A program made the translations under genes and the position numbers. This document shows, piece after piece, positions 10,742-17,900 of a stretch of DNA of 64,000 nucleotides (positions within the stretch are counted from its first letter, which is position 1; every line of letters begins with the position of its first letter). The stretch is from Natrarchaeobius halalkaliphilus (GTDB lineage: Archaea > Halobacteriota > Halobacteria > Halobacteriales > Natrialbaceae), in assembly GCF_003841485.1 (NCBI RefSeq), contig NZ_REFY01000004.1:434001-498000 (forward strand), given 5' to 3'. The notes under the pieces were generated by a model, which was not told the origin of the DNA, made no database searches, and worked only from the letters and a program-made list of their open reading frames with translations.

Positions 10742-10781
10742 TCACATGAAGTCCTCGATTCCCGATTGTTTATTCTTGTCG
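10742..10781 (-). pseudogene. Displaced original 3' end of polC
   Basis: On the minus strand this short stretch reads DKNKQSGIEDFM followed by a stop. It is the expected C terminus of a haloarchaeal PolD large subunit, and it is now separated from polC by the integrase-bearing insertion. QSGIEDFM fits a PCNA-interacting (PIP) box, Q-x-x-hydrophobic-x-x-F-hydrophobic. The first 14 bases are the left copy of the direct repeat found again inside the intact polC gene. The sequence to its left is GC-rich host DNA and that to its right is AT-rich element DNA, so this is the old gene end left outside after integration. Confidence 0.85.
10768..10781 (-). repeat. att site, left copy (14-bp direct repeat)
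   Basis: gtttattcttgtcg, identical to the copy at 12188-12201. On the minus strand it codes DKNK in both places. Outside these 14 bases the two sites diverge immediately, which fits a site-specific recombination core. Confidence 0.82.
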
Positions 10782-10816
10782 AACGAATTATGACCTTTGC
10801 TAAATTCCCGACAGAG

Positions 10817-10825
10817 ATATAAATA
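10817..10825 (+). promoter_or_regulatory. TATA box of the integrase gene
   Basis: atataaata centred about 24 nt before the integrase ATG at 10845, which fits a leaderless archaeal transcript. It lies inside the element, so expression does not depend on the host site. Confidence 0.65.
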
Positions 10826-10844
10826 GAGAGAATGAAGGTCAATT

Positions 10845-12026
10845 ATGGCGAACAGTCCAAGGGCGAAATTAAAAGTAAGGCGAGAAAAATTAGAAGGGCA
10901 TATTGAGAAAGGTGAAATCGATCCTGATACGGGTAATGCAATCCGAGAATTGCTTGATGCATACGACGAAAACAAGGTGATGGTAACTAAGCCAAAGGGT
11001 GAGAGTCATCGAACACCACAGACCTTAATGGCGTGGTTGTATCGATTGATGGTTTTTGCCCAGTATCGGAATCTCACTGAATCTGAAGCAGACGATATCA
11101 ACCGTGATGTGCAAAAGATGCATTCAGGGGATCATCCCCATGTCCAAGATAAAGGACTGAAGAAAGGGACATTAAGAGCATATCAAGCGGCTGTTCGGAA
11201 ATTCTATGGTTTTTATGATTTTGGGGTTGATCCAAACGATATCCCGCTATTCGACAAGGAAGAAACGTCGGTTGAGCCAAACGATATGCTCACAAAAGAC
11301 GAGATTCATGAAGCACGGGAAGTGATTGATAATCCTCGAGACTTACTGGTTTATGATCTACTTCTATACACCGGCCAAAGGCGCGAAGCTTTGCGTACAA
11401 TCCGAATCAAGGATGTGAAACCTCAAGAGGGAACATATCGGCTTAATCCTGAAGTAGACGGTCTGAAGGGCGCAACGGAACGAAATGGGAATCGTCCACT
11501 GCTTGGAGCAAAAGCAACAGTCCAAGATTGGATCAATAATTATCACCCGGACCCTTCCAATCCTGAAAACTACCTGATTACAGCTAGACCGGGATATTCT
11601 CGACCGGACCCTACAAAACCAGTTAGCGGGGAGACTATCAGACAAGTCATGCTAAAGGTCAAGGAAAAAACAAATATTACAAAACCGATGCATCCCCACG
11701 CCATGCGTCATAATCACGTTACAATTGCCAAGCGTGATTATAATATCCCTGACGATACGATCAAATATCTAATCGGACACTCGGCTGATTCAACAGTGAT
11801 GGAATCAACCTATGCACATCTATCGGGTGACGACCACGTTCAACGTGCGGAGGAAGCTTTTGGAATCAGAGAACCAGAGGAAGAATCAGCATTCACACCT
11901 GAAGTGTGTCACGTTTGTAATCAACCACTCGAGCCGAATGCTAAGGCTTGCTCCAATTGTGGAACAGTCTATACACCCGATGCACAAGCTACTCAAGAGC
12001 AAATACAGGAAGATATGTATGAATAG
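10845..12026 (+). CDS. Tyrosine recombinase (integrase) with C-terminal zinc ribbon
   Basis: Site-specific recombinase of 393 residues, predicted to catalyse integration and excision of the element. The N-terminal 140 residues form a SAM-like core-binding domain (LKKGTLRAYQAAVRKFYGFY). The catalytic set is visible: Arg179 or Arg180 (YTGQRREAL), His285-x-x-Arg288 (HAMRHNH), Gly311-His312 (LIGHSADS) and nucleophile Tyr323 (ESTYAHL). A zinc ribbon follows with Cys355, Cys358, Cys369 and Cys372. Codon use is AT-rich (many aaa, aat, tta), unlike every neighbour, so it is recently acquired. A second ATG 13 nt upstream is out of frame. The gene is intact, not split by integration. Confidence 0.92.
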   Translation: MANSPRAKLKVRREKLEGHIEKGEIDPDTGNAIRELLDAYDENKVMVTKPKGESHRTPQTLMAWLYRLMVFAQYRNLTESEADDINRDVQKMHSGDHPHVQDKGLKKGTLRAYQAAVRKFYGFYDFGVDPNDIPLFDKEETSVEPNDMLTKDEIHEAREVIDNPRDLLVYDLLLYTGQRREALRTIRIKDVKPQEGTYRLNPEVDGLKGATERNGNRPLLGAKATVQDWINNYHPDPSNPENYLITARPGYSRPDPTKPVSGETIRQVMLKVKEKTNITKPMHPHAMRHNHVTIAKRDYNIPDDTIKYLIGHSADSTVMESTYAHLSGDDHVQRAEEAFGIREPEEESAFTPEVCHVCNQPLEPNAKACSNCGTVYTPDAQATQEQIQEDMYE

Positions 12027-12134
12027 TAATCTTAGACTGTGGACCTATATCGTATTGTGTCCCTTAGCAAGCGACAGACTCTCTCAAACCCATAGTAGAA
12101 ATAAATAATATCCACTAATACTAATCTATATTCA

Positions 12135-15100
12135 TCATTTGTCGTTGCTATCGGGGCTACCACCCATGAAATCCGCAAGACTTGTGGGTTTATTCTTGTC
12201 GTTTTCGAATATACTCTCGAGGGCCTGTTCCAGGACCTCTAGACGCTGTTTCGTGTAGTCGCGACAGTCGTACTCGTCTGCGACCTGAATCGCCGTCTGC
12301 ATGTACTTGTTCACCGAGCCCTTGTGGACCGTGAGATTGACCCGACCGCCACACTCTCGACAGTCGCCGGTCAGGGGCATCCGCCTGAACTTCTCGCCGC
12401 AGTCGAGACACCGGGTTTCCTGGCGCGAGAAGGCCCGCAGATTGCCGATCAGGTCCGGCAGGAAGTGGTACTCGATAACCCGCTCGGCGACGTCGGTCTC
12501 GTCGACCGCCGCGAGTTTCCGCGAGAGCTCGAGTTGAGCGTCCATCTTGTCCATCATGGATCCGAGCGTCTTGTACGCCGAGAGGTCGGGTCCCATCGCG
12601 ATGTCGGTGGTGTCGTGGGTGTGCCGAAAGCCGGTGTACTCGCCGTCGGTCCCGAGGGTGTCCTCCCCGGTCTGAATGTCGATCGATTCGGGGTCGGCCT
12701 GTTCCAGGGTCGCTTCGTAGAACTCCCGGGAGTACTGCGAGACGATATCCATGTTGTGCGCCTCGTCGTCGATTTCGGACGGATCGATGCGAGAGGACAT
12801 GACCAGCGGCGCGTCCATCGAGTTATGGGCGTAGAGCCAGTTAGCGGTGAAGATCGGCTCGCCGCCGACCTGCAGATCGTATAGGTAACCGTCGTACTCG
12901 ACGCGTTCGATGGACGTGATCCGGAGGTACGAGAGATCACCGTCGACCAGCGGACGGATTGCCTCGAGTTTCTCTTCGGCTTCTTCTGGAAGGTCTCGCT
13001 CGTCGAATTCCGTGACTATTTCCTCGAGTTTCTCGAGCGAGATGTTGTCGCGTCGTTTCAGATATTTTGGAACGAGTCGGGTGATCCCCGTGATGTCCAT
13101 CTCACGAATCTCCATCAGTTCGTCGGGGATAGAAACCACGAGACTCTTGGGTTGGTACGGCTCTTTGTCCTGAAGGATTTGTTCGAGCGGATTCCGAGTT
13201 GCGCCGCCGGAAACGGAAACCGTATAGATCGGCTGTCGTGAAGCGCCGCGTTCGCGCCGCGAGACGTTCGCGACGAGTCCGAGGCGATGACAGAGGTAAA
13301 CGATCCCGTCTTTGACGTCCTCGCTCGTCGTGTGGAAGTTGATTCCGGTGTAGTTGTCGTCGCTCGGCTCTGAACCGTCCCCCGCGATGAACCCGCGGAG
13401 AAACGCGAGTACGACGTCGTTCTCCGCACGAAGGATGCAGTCGGGAACGATCTTTTCGCTCGAGTTGTACGAGTCGCAGTCTTCGAACCCGAGTTCGTAC
13501 AGCACGTCGAAGAATACGGCCGGGAACGCGACCTCGTAGGCCTTGTTCGACCAGCGAACGCTCGGTTCACACCCGAACGAAGCTTCACCCGTTTCGACGA
13601 CTCGGTCGACGAGTTTTTCGTCCCCGTTGTGAATCACGGGTCGAGTACCGGAGAGCGATCCTTCGGCGACGAACATCCCAAGGAGCCACGCGAAGTCTTC
13701 GTCAACGTCGAGATGTCGGTGGATACAATCGGACGAACCCGTCCACCCGACCGAACAGTCGTCGGGGAGCGGTTGTTCACCGTGCTCTGTCTCGATATCC
13801 TCGAGCGTCGATCGGCAGACTTTCTTCTTCGAGAGCCGGTAAGAGATCCCACCGTCGAACGCGACTCGCGTCTCGCTTCCTCGTTTCGACTCGTCCCAGA
13901 CGTCGGTCAGCCACGCTTCGTGTTCGTCGTCGAGCAGCACGTAGGGATCTTCGACGCACTCGAGCACGTCGATCGTCGTCTCGATCGGTTCGACCTCGAG
14001 CGTTTGCGGTGCGACGATCAGGTCGCCCTCTTCCAGATCAGAACCGGCGATCTCCTCGATACCGTCGTCGTACCGGAAGAGACTGTGATCGGTCGTGATC
14101 TCAAGTTCGCGTCCGAACTGGGTCGAGACTCGCAGCAGTTCCTCGCTGTCGTCGGCCTCGTACCGAATCGCCTTCTCGATGGGTTTCGGCTCGGCTTCGT
14201 GGTTCTCGTCGAACGCGTAGGTCGTCCAGCCCTCGAGCGCAGCGGTCTTCTTTTGGAACTTGCCGTCGATCTCGATCGGCACCTCGAGTTCGTCCCAGAA
14301 CTCGTCGAAGGTCATGAACCGGAGGTTACCCTGAGGATCGAAGGCGATCAGTCGCGAGTCCTCCGCGACGCTGCCGCCGCGCTTGTCCGGGAGATACGAC
14401 CGCGAGAAGTTCAACAGTCCGTCCATGAGCAACATCACGCAATCCTCGTCTCCGTCACACTGGGCCGTATGCAGGCCGTTCGCAATGAGCGTGTGTGTCT
14501 CCGCAACCGTGAGACAGTACGTGTAGTCGACATCTGACGGGACGAACTGGACTCGTTCTACTATATCAACCTCCGGACTGCCACCATCGACAACTCCGGA
14601 TACAGCGTCGATCGATCCGTCTCGAGCGGTGTCGGTCGGTAACGGTATCCGATCCCCAGTTTCGAGTTCACTCGCGGCGATCCGTTCGAGGCCGTCGTCC
14701 CAGGCGACCATCGTGTGGTCCGGCGTTACGGTCAGCGATCGACCATTGCAAGTCTCGATCCGAACGAGGTGGTTGGGCGCAGGATGCTTCGAAATCGACT
14801 CGACCGGCCGTTCGATCGCTCGTCCGGAGTCCTCGATCGACGGAACAGTGATCGTCCCTTCGAGATCCTGAATCAGCGTCCCGAAGTCGTCTTCACGTGG
14901 ATTCGTGAGCCGAGATTCGACGAATTCCTCGATCGGCTCCTCGCGACGGTTACCCGATTCATCGTTGTAGCGGATTGTCGTCTCCGGGTGGAAACAATTC
15001 CGCCGTTTCGCGGCGTGAAAGTACGGATGAGCGTATCCGACTGCGGCGCTCGTGAAACCAATCACCCTTCCGACAGTTGCCGCGCTCGTGTGCGGAGCCA

Positions 15101-17900
15101 TCCCGAACACTAACTCGCCAACGAGTTCCTGCCGGTCGTCGATTTCATAGAAGGGATCGAGACCGTAGTACTGCTCGAGGAGGTCGTCGATGAAGTCGGC
15201 CGTCTGCATCATGTGCTCGGCTGCGCCGTCGGAGAGGACGATATCCTGAACCTTGAGTTCGACCAGCTGGTCGTCGTGGGTCAGCGGATCGTCGTGGATA
15301 TCCGCCTCGTAGCCGAGAGCCTGAAGCTGGCCGACGTCGACGTCGAGTTCGCTCGCCCGGACGGACGTCACCGGGAGATCGGTCATGTCGTAGCGAACGG
15401 TGCCGTCCTTGAACGAGGAGACGTCGTGTTTCGCACGCAGGATCCCCTTTTCGATCGGCTCGGGGATCTTCGTTTCCGAGGTCAGTCCCTTGACGCCTTT
15501 GAGGATCTCGAAGGCGTTCTCGCGTTCCCCGACGGACTCGAGTGCGTCGCGGTACTCCTCGTGGATGTCGATTTCGCGGTTCTCGACGCAGGTGGCCTCG
15601 CGTTCGCAGTGGCCACACTCGACGCGTCCGGCCTCGTCCGGCTCGATGCGCTGGTCGCAGTCGGGACAGCGGTAGTCGGGCGTCGTCCGTTCGTCGCAAT
15701 CTGGACAGCGGTTCTTGAACGTCTCCGTTCCACAGCTCTCACAGCGCTTTCGGCCGATCTGGACCTCGACGACGCCGGGCGTATCGGACATCGTCTCGGC
15801 GTGCGTAGCCGCATCGGCAACGTTTCGCTGTTGGCCGCCGGCTTCACCGATCGGAAACAGGGTGTGAACCGGCGGGCTCAGGTCCCGTCGCTCGGATTTC
15901 TCCGGGCGCCCCATCCGATTTCCAACGCGAGTTGGGGCTCGCTCGCGGACCGCGAAGGGAGCGATCTCGTTGACCGCCTCGGTGGCGTTGTCGCCGGCCG
16001 TTTCGTGGCCCCAGTTTCGCGCGCGCTCGGAGAGATCGTCACGACACCAGGTTCGTTCGAGTTCGATGATCGATCCTCGAGTTCGATCGTCGGAGCCGGC
16101 GGCTGCGCCGTCGGTCACCGCCTCCCGTGGCTCACAGCCGAGCGCTCGAACGAACGCCTGCCAGTCGTCGATCTCGATCCGGTTTTCGTCCGGTCGCTGG
16201 CGGTGTTCGATCGCGATCGCCTCGAGAGAGTCGCGCGTCCGTTCTTCGTACTCGAGGACGAGCGTCTCGTCGTCGTCTTCGATCCGGCCGGCAGCGGTCG
16301 CATCCGCGAGGTCACAGAACGCCTCGACCGAAAGGTCGTGCCAGAGGTAGGTGTACTGGGGATGAAGCGGCGCGTCGTAGCTCGTCGCCCACTCGAGAGC
16401 GTCCTCGACGTCGGGGAACTCGAGGTCGATGCGAGGGTCGTCCTCGAGGGCCTGGACGTCCGCTCCGGCGGCCGCGACGTCCTGGATCCACCACTCGTAG
16501 ACGTACGACGCCGGCGAGAGCGGACGGTTGTTCTCGACGAACTCGCCGTAGTTGACCAGGTACTCCCCCGCGTCGAGGATCTTCTCGACGCCGTTTCTGA
16601 TCTCGAGTGCCTCCTCCGGGTCGTCGATCCGACGAACGTCGCCGTTCGCCAGCTTGACCGTGGGACCGTCGATGCTGTCGACGGGGACGATTCCGTGGGC
16701 CTTTCCCGGCCGCTCGGTCTTGATCTGGGTCCCGGTCGCGAGGAAGTCATCGACCAGATGCATCGTGGCGGGATGGACGCCACCGGTCGCAAAGCCGTGG
16801 TTTCGAGCGCGGCCGTAGCGGAGACGAAAGCCGCCCTTCGCGCTGGGATGTGAGAAAACCGGACGGCCGGCGATCAGGTCTCGAAGGAACTTCGTCGAGG
16901 ACTCGGCTCGTGGCGGGCCAGCGGAGTCGTCGACCGGTTCGGAGTCGACGTCGACCGGTGCGGACGATTCGTCCTCGTCTACGGTCTCCTCGCCGGCTGC
17001 GTCTTCCTCGCCGACTTCGGTTTCGCCCTCGTCGGCCGCGTCCTCCGCGTCGGCACCGTCGGCGTAGTTGCCGTCGATGAGATCCTGTAGCCAGGGCCAG
17101 TCGATCTCGTCGAGATTTCGGGTGTAGCGCTGAATTTTGGGCGCTTTCAGCGCGATACCCTCACCGAGGACGAGACACATGCCGCCGCGGGCGCTGTTCG
17201 TATCCACCCGATCTAGGTCCCGAAAGCCCGAAACTTCCTCGTCACCGGTCGCCTCCCCGTCGAGCATGATCGGGAGGTGTTTGGCGATGAACTTCGCCTC
17301 TTTCGCCTTGGGCGTATACTGGAGACCGGTCTCGTTGTCGTACAGGGCGATCTCCTCCGCGTAGCGTTCGACTTCCTCCTGGCGGACGCTGTATTGCTCG
17401 ATTCCCACGAGCGCACGCGTGTAATCCGCGACCAGCACCGAGAGCGCCTGTGCGGTCCCGCCCGCAGAGCGAATCGGACCCGCGTAGTAGACGTTGACGA
17501 ACTCCGTCCCGTCGTCGTTCGTCAGAATTTCGACCCGATCGATCCCCTCGATCGGCGCGGCGACGACCCCCTCGGTCAGCAGCGCGACCGCGGTTCGGAC
17601 GGCCCCTTCGACCTTGCCGGCTTTCGACTCGTAGTCCCCGACGCGACCCTCCGCGAAATCCTCCGCCAACTCGAGGGCGGCCTCCTCGCGTGACATCTCA
17701 CCCTCGAGTTCGCGAACGCGCTCTGCGACGCCGTCGATGCCGAGAATGTTCTCGACGCGGTCGGCCATGTCCTTTGCGACCGGAATCTCGACGTCGGGTT
17801 CGGGATCGCCGCCGCGTTCTTTGGCCCGCTCTGCGACGTCGAACGCCTCCTCGAGTCCGGATTCGAGCCGATCGAAGTACCGTTCGTCTTCTTCGCGCAT
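12135..17900 (-). CDS. polC: DNA polymerase D large subunit (DP2) with two inteins
   Basis: Catalytic subunit of the archaeal replicative polymerase PolD. The 1921-residue precursor holds two inteins (residues 969-1147 and 1177-1693); removing them leaves 1225 residues, normal for haloarchaeal DP2. Visible family features: the N-terminal block YYAGPIRSAGGTAQALSVLVADY, a poly-acidic insert near residues 280-330, a zinc cluster near 725-790 (CESCGTETFKNRCPDC, CPDCDQ, CGHCE), the catalytic region around HPYFHAAKRRN / CDGDEDCVMLLMDG, and a C-terminal zinc finger CLDCGEKFRRM...CRECGG. The last residues (KPTSLADFMGGSPDSNDK) come from the integrated element rather than the original gene end at 10742. 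It starts 1 nt after the PPC-domain gene stop, so the two form an operon. Confidence 0.96.
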   Translation of the reverse strand: MREEDERYFDRLESGLEEAFDVAERAKERGGDPEPDVEIPVAKDMADRVENILGIDGVAERVRELEGEMSREEAALELAEDFAEGRVGDYESKAGKVEGAVRTAVALLTEGVVAAPIEGIDRVEILTNDDGTEFVNVYYAGPIRSAGGTAQALSVLVADYTRALVGIEQYSVRQEEVERYAEEIALYDNETGLQYTPKAKEAKFIAKHLPIMLDGEATGDEEVSGFRDLDRVDTNSARGGMCLVLGEGIALKAPKIQRYTRNLDEIDWPWLQDLIDGNYADGADAEDAADEGETEVGEEDAAGEETVDEDESSAPVDVDSEPVDDSAGPPRAESSTKFLRDLIAGRPVFSHPSAKGGFRLRYGRARNHGFATGGVHPATMHLVDDFLATGTQIKTERPGKAHGIVPVDSIDGPTVKLANGDVRRIDDPEEALEIRNGVEKILDAGEYLVNYGEFVENNRPLSPASYVYEWWIQDVAAAGADVQALEDDPRIDLEFPDVEDALEWATSYDAPLHPQYTYLWHDLSVEAFCDLADATAAGRIEDDDETLVLEYEERTRDSLEAIAIEHRQRPDENRIEIDDWQAFVRALGCEPREAVTDGAAAGSDDRTRGSIIELERTWCRDDLSERARNWGHETAGDNATEAVNEIAPFAVRERAPTRVGNRMGRPEKSERRDLSPPVHTLFPIGEAGGQQRNVADAATHAETMSDTPGVVEVQIGRKRCESCGTETFKNRCPDCDERTTPDYRCPDCDQRIEPDEAGRVECGHCEREATCVENREIDIHEEYRDALESVGERENAFEILKGVKGLTSETKIPEPIEKGILRAKHDVSSFKDGTVRYDMTDLPVTSVRASELDVDVGQLQALGYEADIHDDPLTHDDQLVELKVQDIVLSDGAAEHMMQTADFIDDLLEQYYGLDPFYEIDDRQELVGELVFGMAPHTSAATVGRVIGFTSAAVGYAHPYFHAAKRRNCFHPETTIRYNDESGNRREEPIEEFVESRLTNPREDDFGTLIQDLEGTITVPSIEDSGRAIERPVESISKHPAPNHLVRIETCNGRSLTVTPDHTMVAWDDGLERIAASELETGDRIPLPTDTARDGSIDAVSGVVDGGSPEVDIVERVQFVPSDVDYTYCLTVAETHTLIANGLHTAQCDGDEDCVMLLMDGLLNFSRSYLPDKRGGSVAEDSRLIAFDPQGNLRFMTFDEFWDELEVPIEIDGKFQKKTAALEGWTTYAFDENHEAEPKPIEKAIRYEADDSEELLRVSTQFGRELEITTDHSLFRYDDGIEEIAGSDLEEGDLIVAPQTLEVEPIETTIDVLECVEDPYVLLDDEHEAWLTDVWDESKRGSETRVAFDGGISYRLSKKKVCRSTLEDIETEHGEQPLPDDCSVGWTGSSDCIHRHLDVDEDFAWLLGMFVAEGSLSGTRPVIHNGDEKLVDRVVETGEASFGCEPSVRWSNKAYEVAFPAVFFDVLYELGFEDCDSYNSSEKIVPDCILRAENDVVLAFLRGFIAGDGSEPSDDNYTGINFHTTSEDVKDGIVYLCHRLGLVANVSRRERGASRQPIYTVSVSGGATRNPLEQILQDKEPYQPKSLVVSIPDELMEIREMDITGITRLVPKYLKRRDNISLEKLEEIVTEFDERDLPEEAEEKLEAIRPLVDGDLSYLRITSIERVEYDGYLYDLQVGGEPIFTANWLYAHNSMDAPLVMSSRIDPSEIDDEAHNMDIVSQYSREFYEATLEQADPESIDIQTGEDTLGTDGEYTGFRHTHDTTDIAMGPDLSAYKTLGSMMDKMDAQLELSRKLAAVDETDVAERVIEYHFLPDLIGNLRAFSRQETRCLDCGEKFRRMPLTGDCRECGGRVNLTVHKGSVNKYMQTAIQVADEYDCRDYTKQRLEVLEQALESIFENDKNKPTSLADFMGGSPDSNDK
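12188..12201 (-). repeat. att site, right copy (14-bp direct repeat) inside polC
   Basis: gtttattcttgtcg, the second copy of the element boundary repeat. It lies in frame near the end of the polC reading frame and codes DKNK. Everything downstream of it in polC (down to 12135) is element-derived. Confidence 0.82.
12822..14372 (-). other. Intein 2 in PolD DP2 with LAGLIDADG endonuclease
   Basis: Residues 1177-1693 (517 residues) interrupt LPDKRGG / SMDAPLV. Block A begins with Ser1 (SVAEDSRLIAF), block B is LEITTDHSLFRY, and the end is FTANWLYAHN with canonical His-Asn and Ser+1. Two LAGLIDADG motifs are visible, LLGMFVAEGSL (acidic residue Glu1413) and FLRGFIAGDGS (Asp1508), so the homing endonuclease may be active. 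Intein 1 lies only 29 extein residues away. Confidence 0.93.
14460..14996 (-). other. Intein 1 in PolD DP2 (mini-intein, Cys1, C-terminal Gln)
   Basis: Residues 969-1147 (179 residues) interrupt AAKRRN / CDGDED. Block A starts with Cys1 (CFHPETTIRY), block B is LTVTPDHTMVAW with the conserved T-x-x-H, and blocks F/G are YTYCLTVAETHTLIANGLHTAQ's parts ending in Gln instead of Asn and Ala instead of the usual penultimate His; the next extein residue is Cys1148. Its size leaves no room for a homing endonuclease. A C-terminal Gln with Cys+1 at this polymerase site is known from the Pyrococcus abyssi PolII intein. Splicing is therefore plausible but with a noncanonical last step. Confidence 0.9.

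Follow-up and report, generated by a model that had tools for sequence, protein, structure and literature searches.

Replacement of the 3' ends of conserved genes by integrating elements is already known as a kind of event. In Escherichia coli, both prophage e14 and phage 21 insert in icd, the gene of isocitrate dehydrogenase. The e14 prophage supplies the 3' coding end of icd and displaces the original one, which becomes a pseudo-fragment (PMC6379469). A thaumarchaeal element with a 13-bp att site replaces the last codons and the stop codon of a conserved protein gene (NitEve-E2; cf. casposons in EF-2; PMC6563490), and the tyrosine integrases of streptococcal integrative and conjugative elements (ICE), located in the 3' ends of rplL, rpsI, lysS and guaA, cluster by target gene (PMC4701971). 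Here we analyze a 64,000-nucleotide stretch of the haloarchaeon Natrarchaeobius halalkaliphilus (contig NZ_REFY01000004.1, positions 434,001 to 498,000; hereafter, the window), in which an integrative element occupies the 3' end of polC, the gene of the large subunit DP2 of the replicative DNA polymerase D (PolD). The displaced and the new gene endings differ in the PIP (PCNA-interacting peptide) box, and it is likely, in our opinion, that a haloarchaeal family of such elements supplies polC with a functional stand-in for this box and in this way protects the essential gene.

The canonical PIP box is Q-x-x-[ILMV]-x-x-aromatic-aromatic; in a survey of PCNA-binding peptides its position 1 was the most permissive, with Pro among the accepted residues (PMC6881253). 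The DP2 subunit of Pyrococcus abyssi has an internal PIP box (Q1198), which is required for PCNA-stimulated full-length synthesis and supports processive synthesis, its Gln reaching the PCNA pocket, and a C-terminal one around residues 1258-1264, which has no Gln, recruits PCNA and binds primase (PMC7101311). Both PolB and PolD have been reported to be essential in haloarchaea (PMC7776575).

The polC locus of N. halalkaliphilus

The polC gene of the window (12135..17900, minus strand; PF03833, PF24844, PF24846) encodes DP2 of 1921 aa with intein insertions (PF14890, TIGR01445), and its intact terminus reads ENDKNK-PTSLADFM-GGSPDSNDK-stop, the part from PTSLADFM onward (12135..12188, minus strand) being, according to the tail comparison below, supplied by the element. 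Beyond the element lies a second, displaced polC ending, FDKNK-QSGIEDFM-stop, whose PIP box and stop codon occupy positions 10742..10768 of the minus strand. The 14-bp att core GTTTATTCTTGTCG (in the polC sense CGACAAGAATAAAC, within the codons DKNKQ) is present in the window in exactly two copies, which form an exact direct repeat with a spacing of 1420 bp: one on the side of the displaced tail (10768..10781, plus strand) and the other on the side of the intact polC (12188..12201, plus strand). In shuffled sequences the core had 0.14 matches even with two mismatches permitted, and the whole 3.5 Mb haloarchaeal genome contains no exact copies beyond the two att sites. The element itself, 1420 bp in length (10782..12201, no strand assigned), is bounded by the att core and stands out by its low GC content (43-46% between the att copies vs. 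55-67% in the surroundings); its relatives, where complete, are about 2-16 kb long. Thus, the core of the original prediction, an integrative element that displaces QSGIEDFM and leaves an intact polC ending in PTSLADFM plus nine residues, is confirmed by the sequence.

The element encodes one tyrosine recombinase (integrase) of 393 aa with a C-terminal zinc-ribbon-like segment (10845..12026, plus strand), which matches PF00589 (E 3.6e-16) and, weakly and below the gathering score, PF13240 (E 1e-4). The catalytic positions R..H-x-x-R..H..Y are present and invariant across nine aligned sequences; however, the integrase of the window lacks about 35-40 C-terminal residues found in its eight aligned relatives. 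The shortened integrase and the small size mark the window element as a decayed member, a deletion remnant of elements reaching about 16 kb elsewhere, and this copy may not excise. Judging from the comparison with other elements, the crossover should be located around the positions GACAAGAA.

As to the inteins of the window polC, a short one, starting from CFHPETTIRYN, has no recognized endonuclease, and another is of the LAGLIDADG type, so that this one essential gene hosts three selfish insertions, counting the inteins and the element.

A family of elements dedicated to the polC end

The integrase was searched for in 391 genomes sampled across the class, and the DNA around the matches was read. 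In haloarchaea of at least four families we recognized 14 polC-end insertions: nine integrase carriers from the class-wide search, two more from a search of a single family, and three decayed insertions without the integrase in which both tails are present. The 11 integrases belong to one clade (58-100% identical to that of the window). Each of the nine closest ones (62-100% identity) starts beside a displaced native polC end, and the polC gene on the opposite side of these nine elements is intact but has a non-native tail, the contigs being broken inside the element in genome G108. The same arrangement is found with the two further integrases (64 and 58% identity), so that within approximately 58% identity 11 of 11 integrases adjoin a displaced native polC end, and their orientation relative to the displaced tail is constant. 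The supposition of a conserved target site is borne out: the clade is dedicated to polC, and the site is conserved across haloarchaeal families. The carriers include Haloferax massiliensis, Halapricum hydrolyticum, Halovenus salina, Halorubrum sp. 48-1-W and Halomicroarcula sp. SYNS111. The elements are 1.4 (in the window), 1.9, 6.7, 7.5, 8.3, ~9.4, 13.2, 14.1, ~15 and 16.2 kb long; the two ends of the Halorubrum element are on separate contigs. The larger elements carry genes of Prim-Pol, D5-type replication proteins, a UvrD-like helicase, a second recombinase, or type I restriction-modification genes, a cargo that fits the expectation for mobile elements.

The three insertions that have no integrase and keep both tails contain, as read from the translations, genes resembling those of PAS-kinases/response regulators (G003), helix-turn-helix regulators (G012), and membrane proteins (G311). 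Their attP-side arms differ (L085, L086, L088), which hints at decayed members of the family or at a second family of elements using the same site.

More distant integrases have other neighbors. No polC tail was found upstream of the ~46-51% identical sister integrases L013, L014 and L129 (genomes G268, G259 and G431), all of which adjoin a glutathione-S-transferase-like coding sequence (YHTHF[MK]CNR); this neighbor, identified by eye only, suggests another protein-gene target. One more integrase, 46% identical (L015, genome G055), adjoins the start of a replication protein A-like gene (MGAIEDIYEDLETDVPEEEF...), possibly another replication-gene neighborhood.

Empty sites and Pro tails without elements

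In all six element-free relatives examined, which belong to the family of N. halalkaliphilus and three of which belong to its genus, the shared DP2 sequence is followed straight by ENDKNKQSGIEDFM and the stop codon, i.e., by the peptide that is displaced in the window; the comparison of DP2 ends of relatives thus turned out in favor of the original prediction. The downstream flank of the window showed no synteny past the polC end with three genomes of the same genus and three of the same family, and therefore the syntenic proof of an empty site was taken from Haloferax. In H. massiliensis (G266), the displaced tail is followed by a flank that lies 6.7 kb away from polC, and in Haloferax G189 DNA 91% identical to this flank comes closely after the native polC; G189 is thus a syntenic empty site.

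These data bear on the supposition that the tails vary by themselves, the duplicated end being a tandem duplication or an assembly artefact. Short tandem duplicates of the polC end do exist in Haloferax genomes, and a few lineages have other tails, e.g., KASKISDFM. However, an integrase of one clade is located between the two ends in 11 genomes in constant orientation to the displaced tail, the repeats of the window flank foreign low-GC DNA, and a syntenic empty site exists, which makes natural polymorphism or an artefact extremely improbable. Recurrence of the arrangement in at least four families was a further reason to reject an assembly artefact or a simple duplication.

Class-wide tail scans revealed a recognizable polC tail in 370 of the 391 genomes, with Pro at position 1 of the PIP box in 22 of them. 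These 22 comprise nine genomes bearing the integrase, three with a displaced tail and no integrase, two with extended tails, where the accessible sequence (19.8 kb in G356, up to the contig end in G377) contains no displaced copy, and eight with bare tails. In the latter eight no displaced copy was found within 19.8 kb, and several of them have GC-rich, host-like codons. These tails look as if they were fixed after the loss of the element, i.e., the swap is apparently heritable.

Two other observations concern native tails. In three genomes of one genus (G355, G124 and G070) the native polC tail is KASKISDFM, also without the PIP-box Gln. Element-free Haloferax genomes (L111-L119) repeat the polC 3' end in tandem just past the stop codon, one to several extra times with a period of ~98-110 nt (e.g., VENEQSGIADFM-stop plus ~45 nt). 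The DKNK crossover codons are missing from most of these copies, which may have arisen by slippage duplication or remained as scars of earlier events.

Loss of Gln with conserved docking residues

Gln occupies position 1 of the PIP box in 14/14 displaced host tails vs. 0/14 element tails (Fisher 5e-8, uncorrected for relatedness). The loss of Gln is thus a rule in this family, and it is indeed the PIP-coding end that is swapped. In the element tails Gln is replaced by Pro in 13 cases and by Ala in one (Halovenus salina). All 14 of them conform to the pattern [PA][TS][ST][LI][AG][DE]FM and have Ile or Leu at position 4 and Phe at position 7; the displaced native tails are Q-SG-I-[AE]-DFM, Q-GS-I-A-DFM and similar ones. 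Position 8 is Met, a non-aromatic residue, in both native and element tails. The replacement of Gln by Pro with retention of an L-x-DFM-type motif had been anticipated correctly for the window, with the amendment that position 4 is altered as well, native Ile becoming Leu. As for the proposal that the extension buries the motif, it is limited to the window (G000) and to the counterparts GGGPKNGD, GGGPGSDT and GGGPGDG in G119, G356 and G377, all three of the family to which the window belongs, whereas 12 of the 14 element tails terminate right after FM. The extension as a general feature of the elements is thus ruled out.

The element tails differ from one another by 13 distinct nucleotide changes, of which one is radical, five are conservative and seven are synonymous. 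In a codon test that covers 24 nucleotides and ignores phylogeny, the probability of so few radical changes arising at random is ~0.009, and that of so many synonymous changes 0.006. The similarity among the element tails stops at the stop codon. This bias together with the end of similarity at the stop codon suggests selection on the peptide, with integrase binding as an alternative constraint. The latter would mean that the tail is conserved purely as a part of the att site, the loss of Gln originating from the attP half-site and the resulting peptide being merely tolerated. Just past the core, the elements do resemble one another in nucleotide sequence, and their differences from attB fall at the same place; the targets of streptococcal ICE are thought to be chosen for minimal effect on the host (PMC4701971). 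However, the predominance of third-codon-position and conservative variation and the cessation of similarity at the stop codon argue against this explanation, which we regard as rather unlikely.

A probable stand-in for the PIP box

Haloarchaeal DP2 can be aligned with that of P. abyssi up to FEN1192, and five residues further on it has its terminal Gln. According to this alignment, the haloarchaeal terminal motif should lie within one residue of the internal PIP box of P. abyssi, with the linker and the distal PIP box absent; in this case the element swaps the only motif of the PIP type recognized at the C terminus of DP2. Since position 1 is permissive and admits Pro, the new tail probably still binds PCNA.

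The proposed sequence of events is as follows. The integrase would recombine attP of a circular element with attB, represented by the DKNKQ codons at the polC 3' end. Directly after the shared core, attP is supposed to carry its own short polC ending with a stop codon, and for this reason the polymerase gene would again be complete after integration but with a different C terminus, while the original ending of the host would come to lie beyond the element. The stand-in never has Gln at position 1 but keeps the residues that are expected to dock into PCNA, i.e., an aliphatic one at position 4 and Phe-Met at positions 7-8. As PolD is essential, an element ruining DP2 is expected to be lethal, and the stand-in most likely allows the elements to occupy an essential conserved gene without death of the host. 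Subsequently the integrase and then the old end could be lost, with the tail of the element retained as the polymerase tail of the host; such is the simplest order of events.

The original prediction also allowed for tuning of host replication by the changed tail. A tail devoid of Gln might weaken or redirect the contact of the polymerase with the clamp (or with primase), slowing host replication or favoring that of the element. Such active modulation agrees with the absence of Gln from all 14 element tails against its presence in nearly all of the native tails listed for the class, with the Prim-Pol/D5-type replication proteins encoded by elements of the family, and with the position of the haloarchaeal motif next to the internal PIP box of P. 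abyssi, the Gln of which enters the PCNA pocket (PMC7101311). At the same time, the element tails retain the docking residues, proteins known to bind PCNA can have Pro at position 1, and the apparent fixation of the tails in element-free lineages gives no sign of a strong cost; we consider modulation improbable. The pattern of conservation argues first for a preserved clamp contact rather than for replication tuning. A broader version, also quite unlikely, would be that the elements systematically edit the clamp-docking peptide, removing Gln and altering PolD-PCNA or PolD-primase traffic for their own benefit, and that the edited peptide outlives the element, repeatedly rewriting a core replisome contact in haloarchaeal evolution.

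Several points weigh against the supply of a functional stand-in by the elements. The PCNA contact and the activity of haloarchaeal DP2 tails are predicted from sequence. The short codon test could also reflect a constraint imposed on the DNA by integrase-attP binding. The three insertions without integrase, given their differing attP-side arms, may belong to other element families; as for the eight "fixed" tails, they may have arisen independently in the hosts or be part of elements longer than 19.8 kb. Finally, a free or excised form was not found in viral, phage or plasmid collections: a scan of viral contigs with the integrase alignment gave no relative, the plasmid and phage searches gave distant integrases only (the best being 33 and 46% identical), and consequently attP of the free form could not be read.

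Significance and comparison with known systems

Insertion into the 3' ends of conserved genes is commonly viewed as a neutral form of camouflage. In the case of polC, what is exchanged is the peptide by which an essential replicative polymerase is predicted to dock to its clamp; the substitution follows a consistent pattern, and several lineages seem to have kept the version of the element permanently. The tail swaps provide natural PolD variants across haloarchaeal families, including the genetically tractable Haloferax, with which the in vivo importance of the PIP-box Gln and of the DP2-PCNA contact could be probed. In addition, the family is a source of an integrase whose att site in the haloarchaeal chromosome is conserved.

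The original prediction knew of no described case, and we found no description of the polC end as a target in the literature searched, in which subscription papers were mostly not covered. As far as this literature shows, the new features are the clamp motif as the target, the dedicated integrase clade, spread over at least four families of haloarchaea, the uniform loss of Gln with the docking residues kept, and the apparent fixation of the tails.

Among related integrases, that of Halorubrum tailed virus 27 (46% identity over 72% of the query) falls outside the polC-targeting clade. The DP2 of P. abyssi resembles the haloarchaeal one in having a PIP-type motif in its C-terminal region, and its C-terminal PIP box also has no Gln (PMC7101311), but haloarchaeal DP2 ends near the position of the internal box, without the linker and the C-terminal one. 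The streptococcal ICE likewise use conserved 3' ends and change the product little; however, no polymerase is among their targets, and the product is reported to remain nearly unchanged, without a signature substitution. The thaumarchaeal elements differ in their nature and their targets, and neither a clade-wide dedication to a replicative polymerase nor a conserved motif mimic has been described for them. In icd, as in polC, the integrated element (e14) provides a new 3' coding end for a conserved gene and displaces the original one. There, the target is a bacterial metabolic enzyme and a long homologous replacement (163-bp displaced fragment) gives a near-identical product, whereas the polC elements exchange the docking peptide of an archaeal polymerase for a consistently different one.

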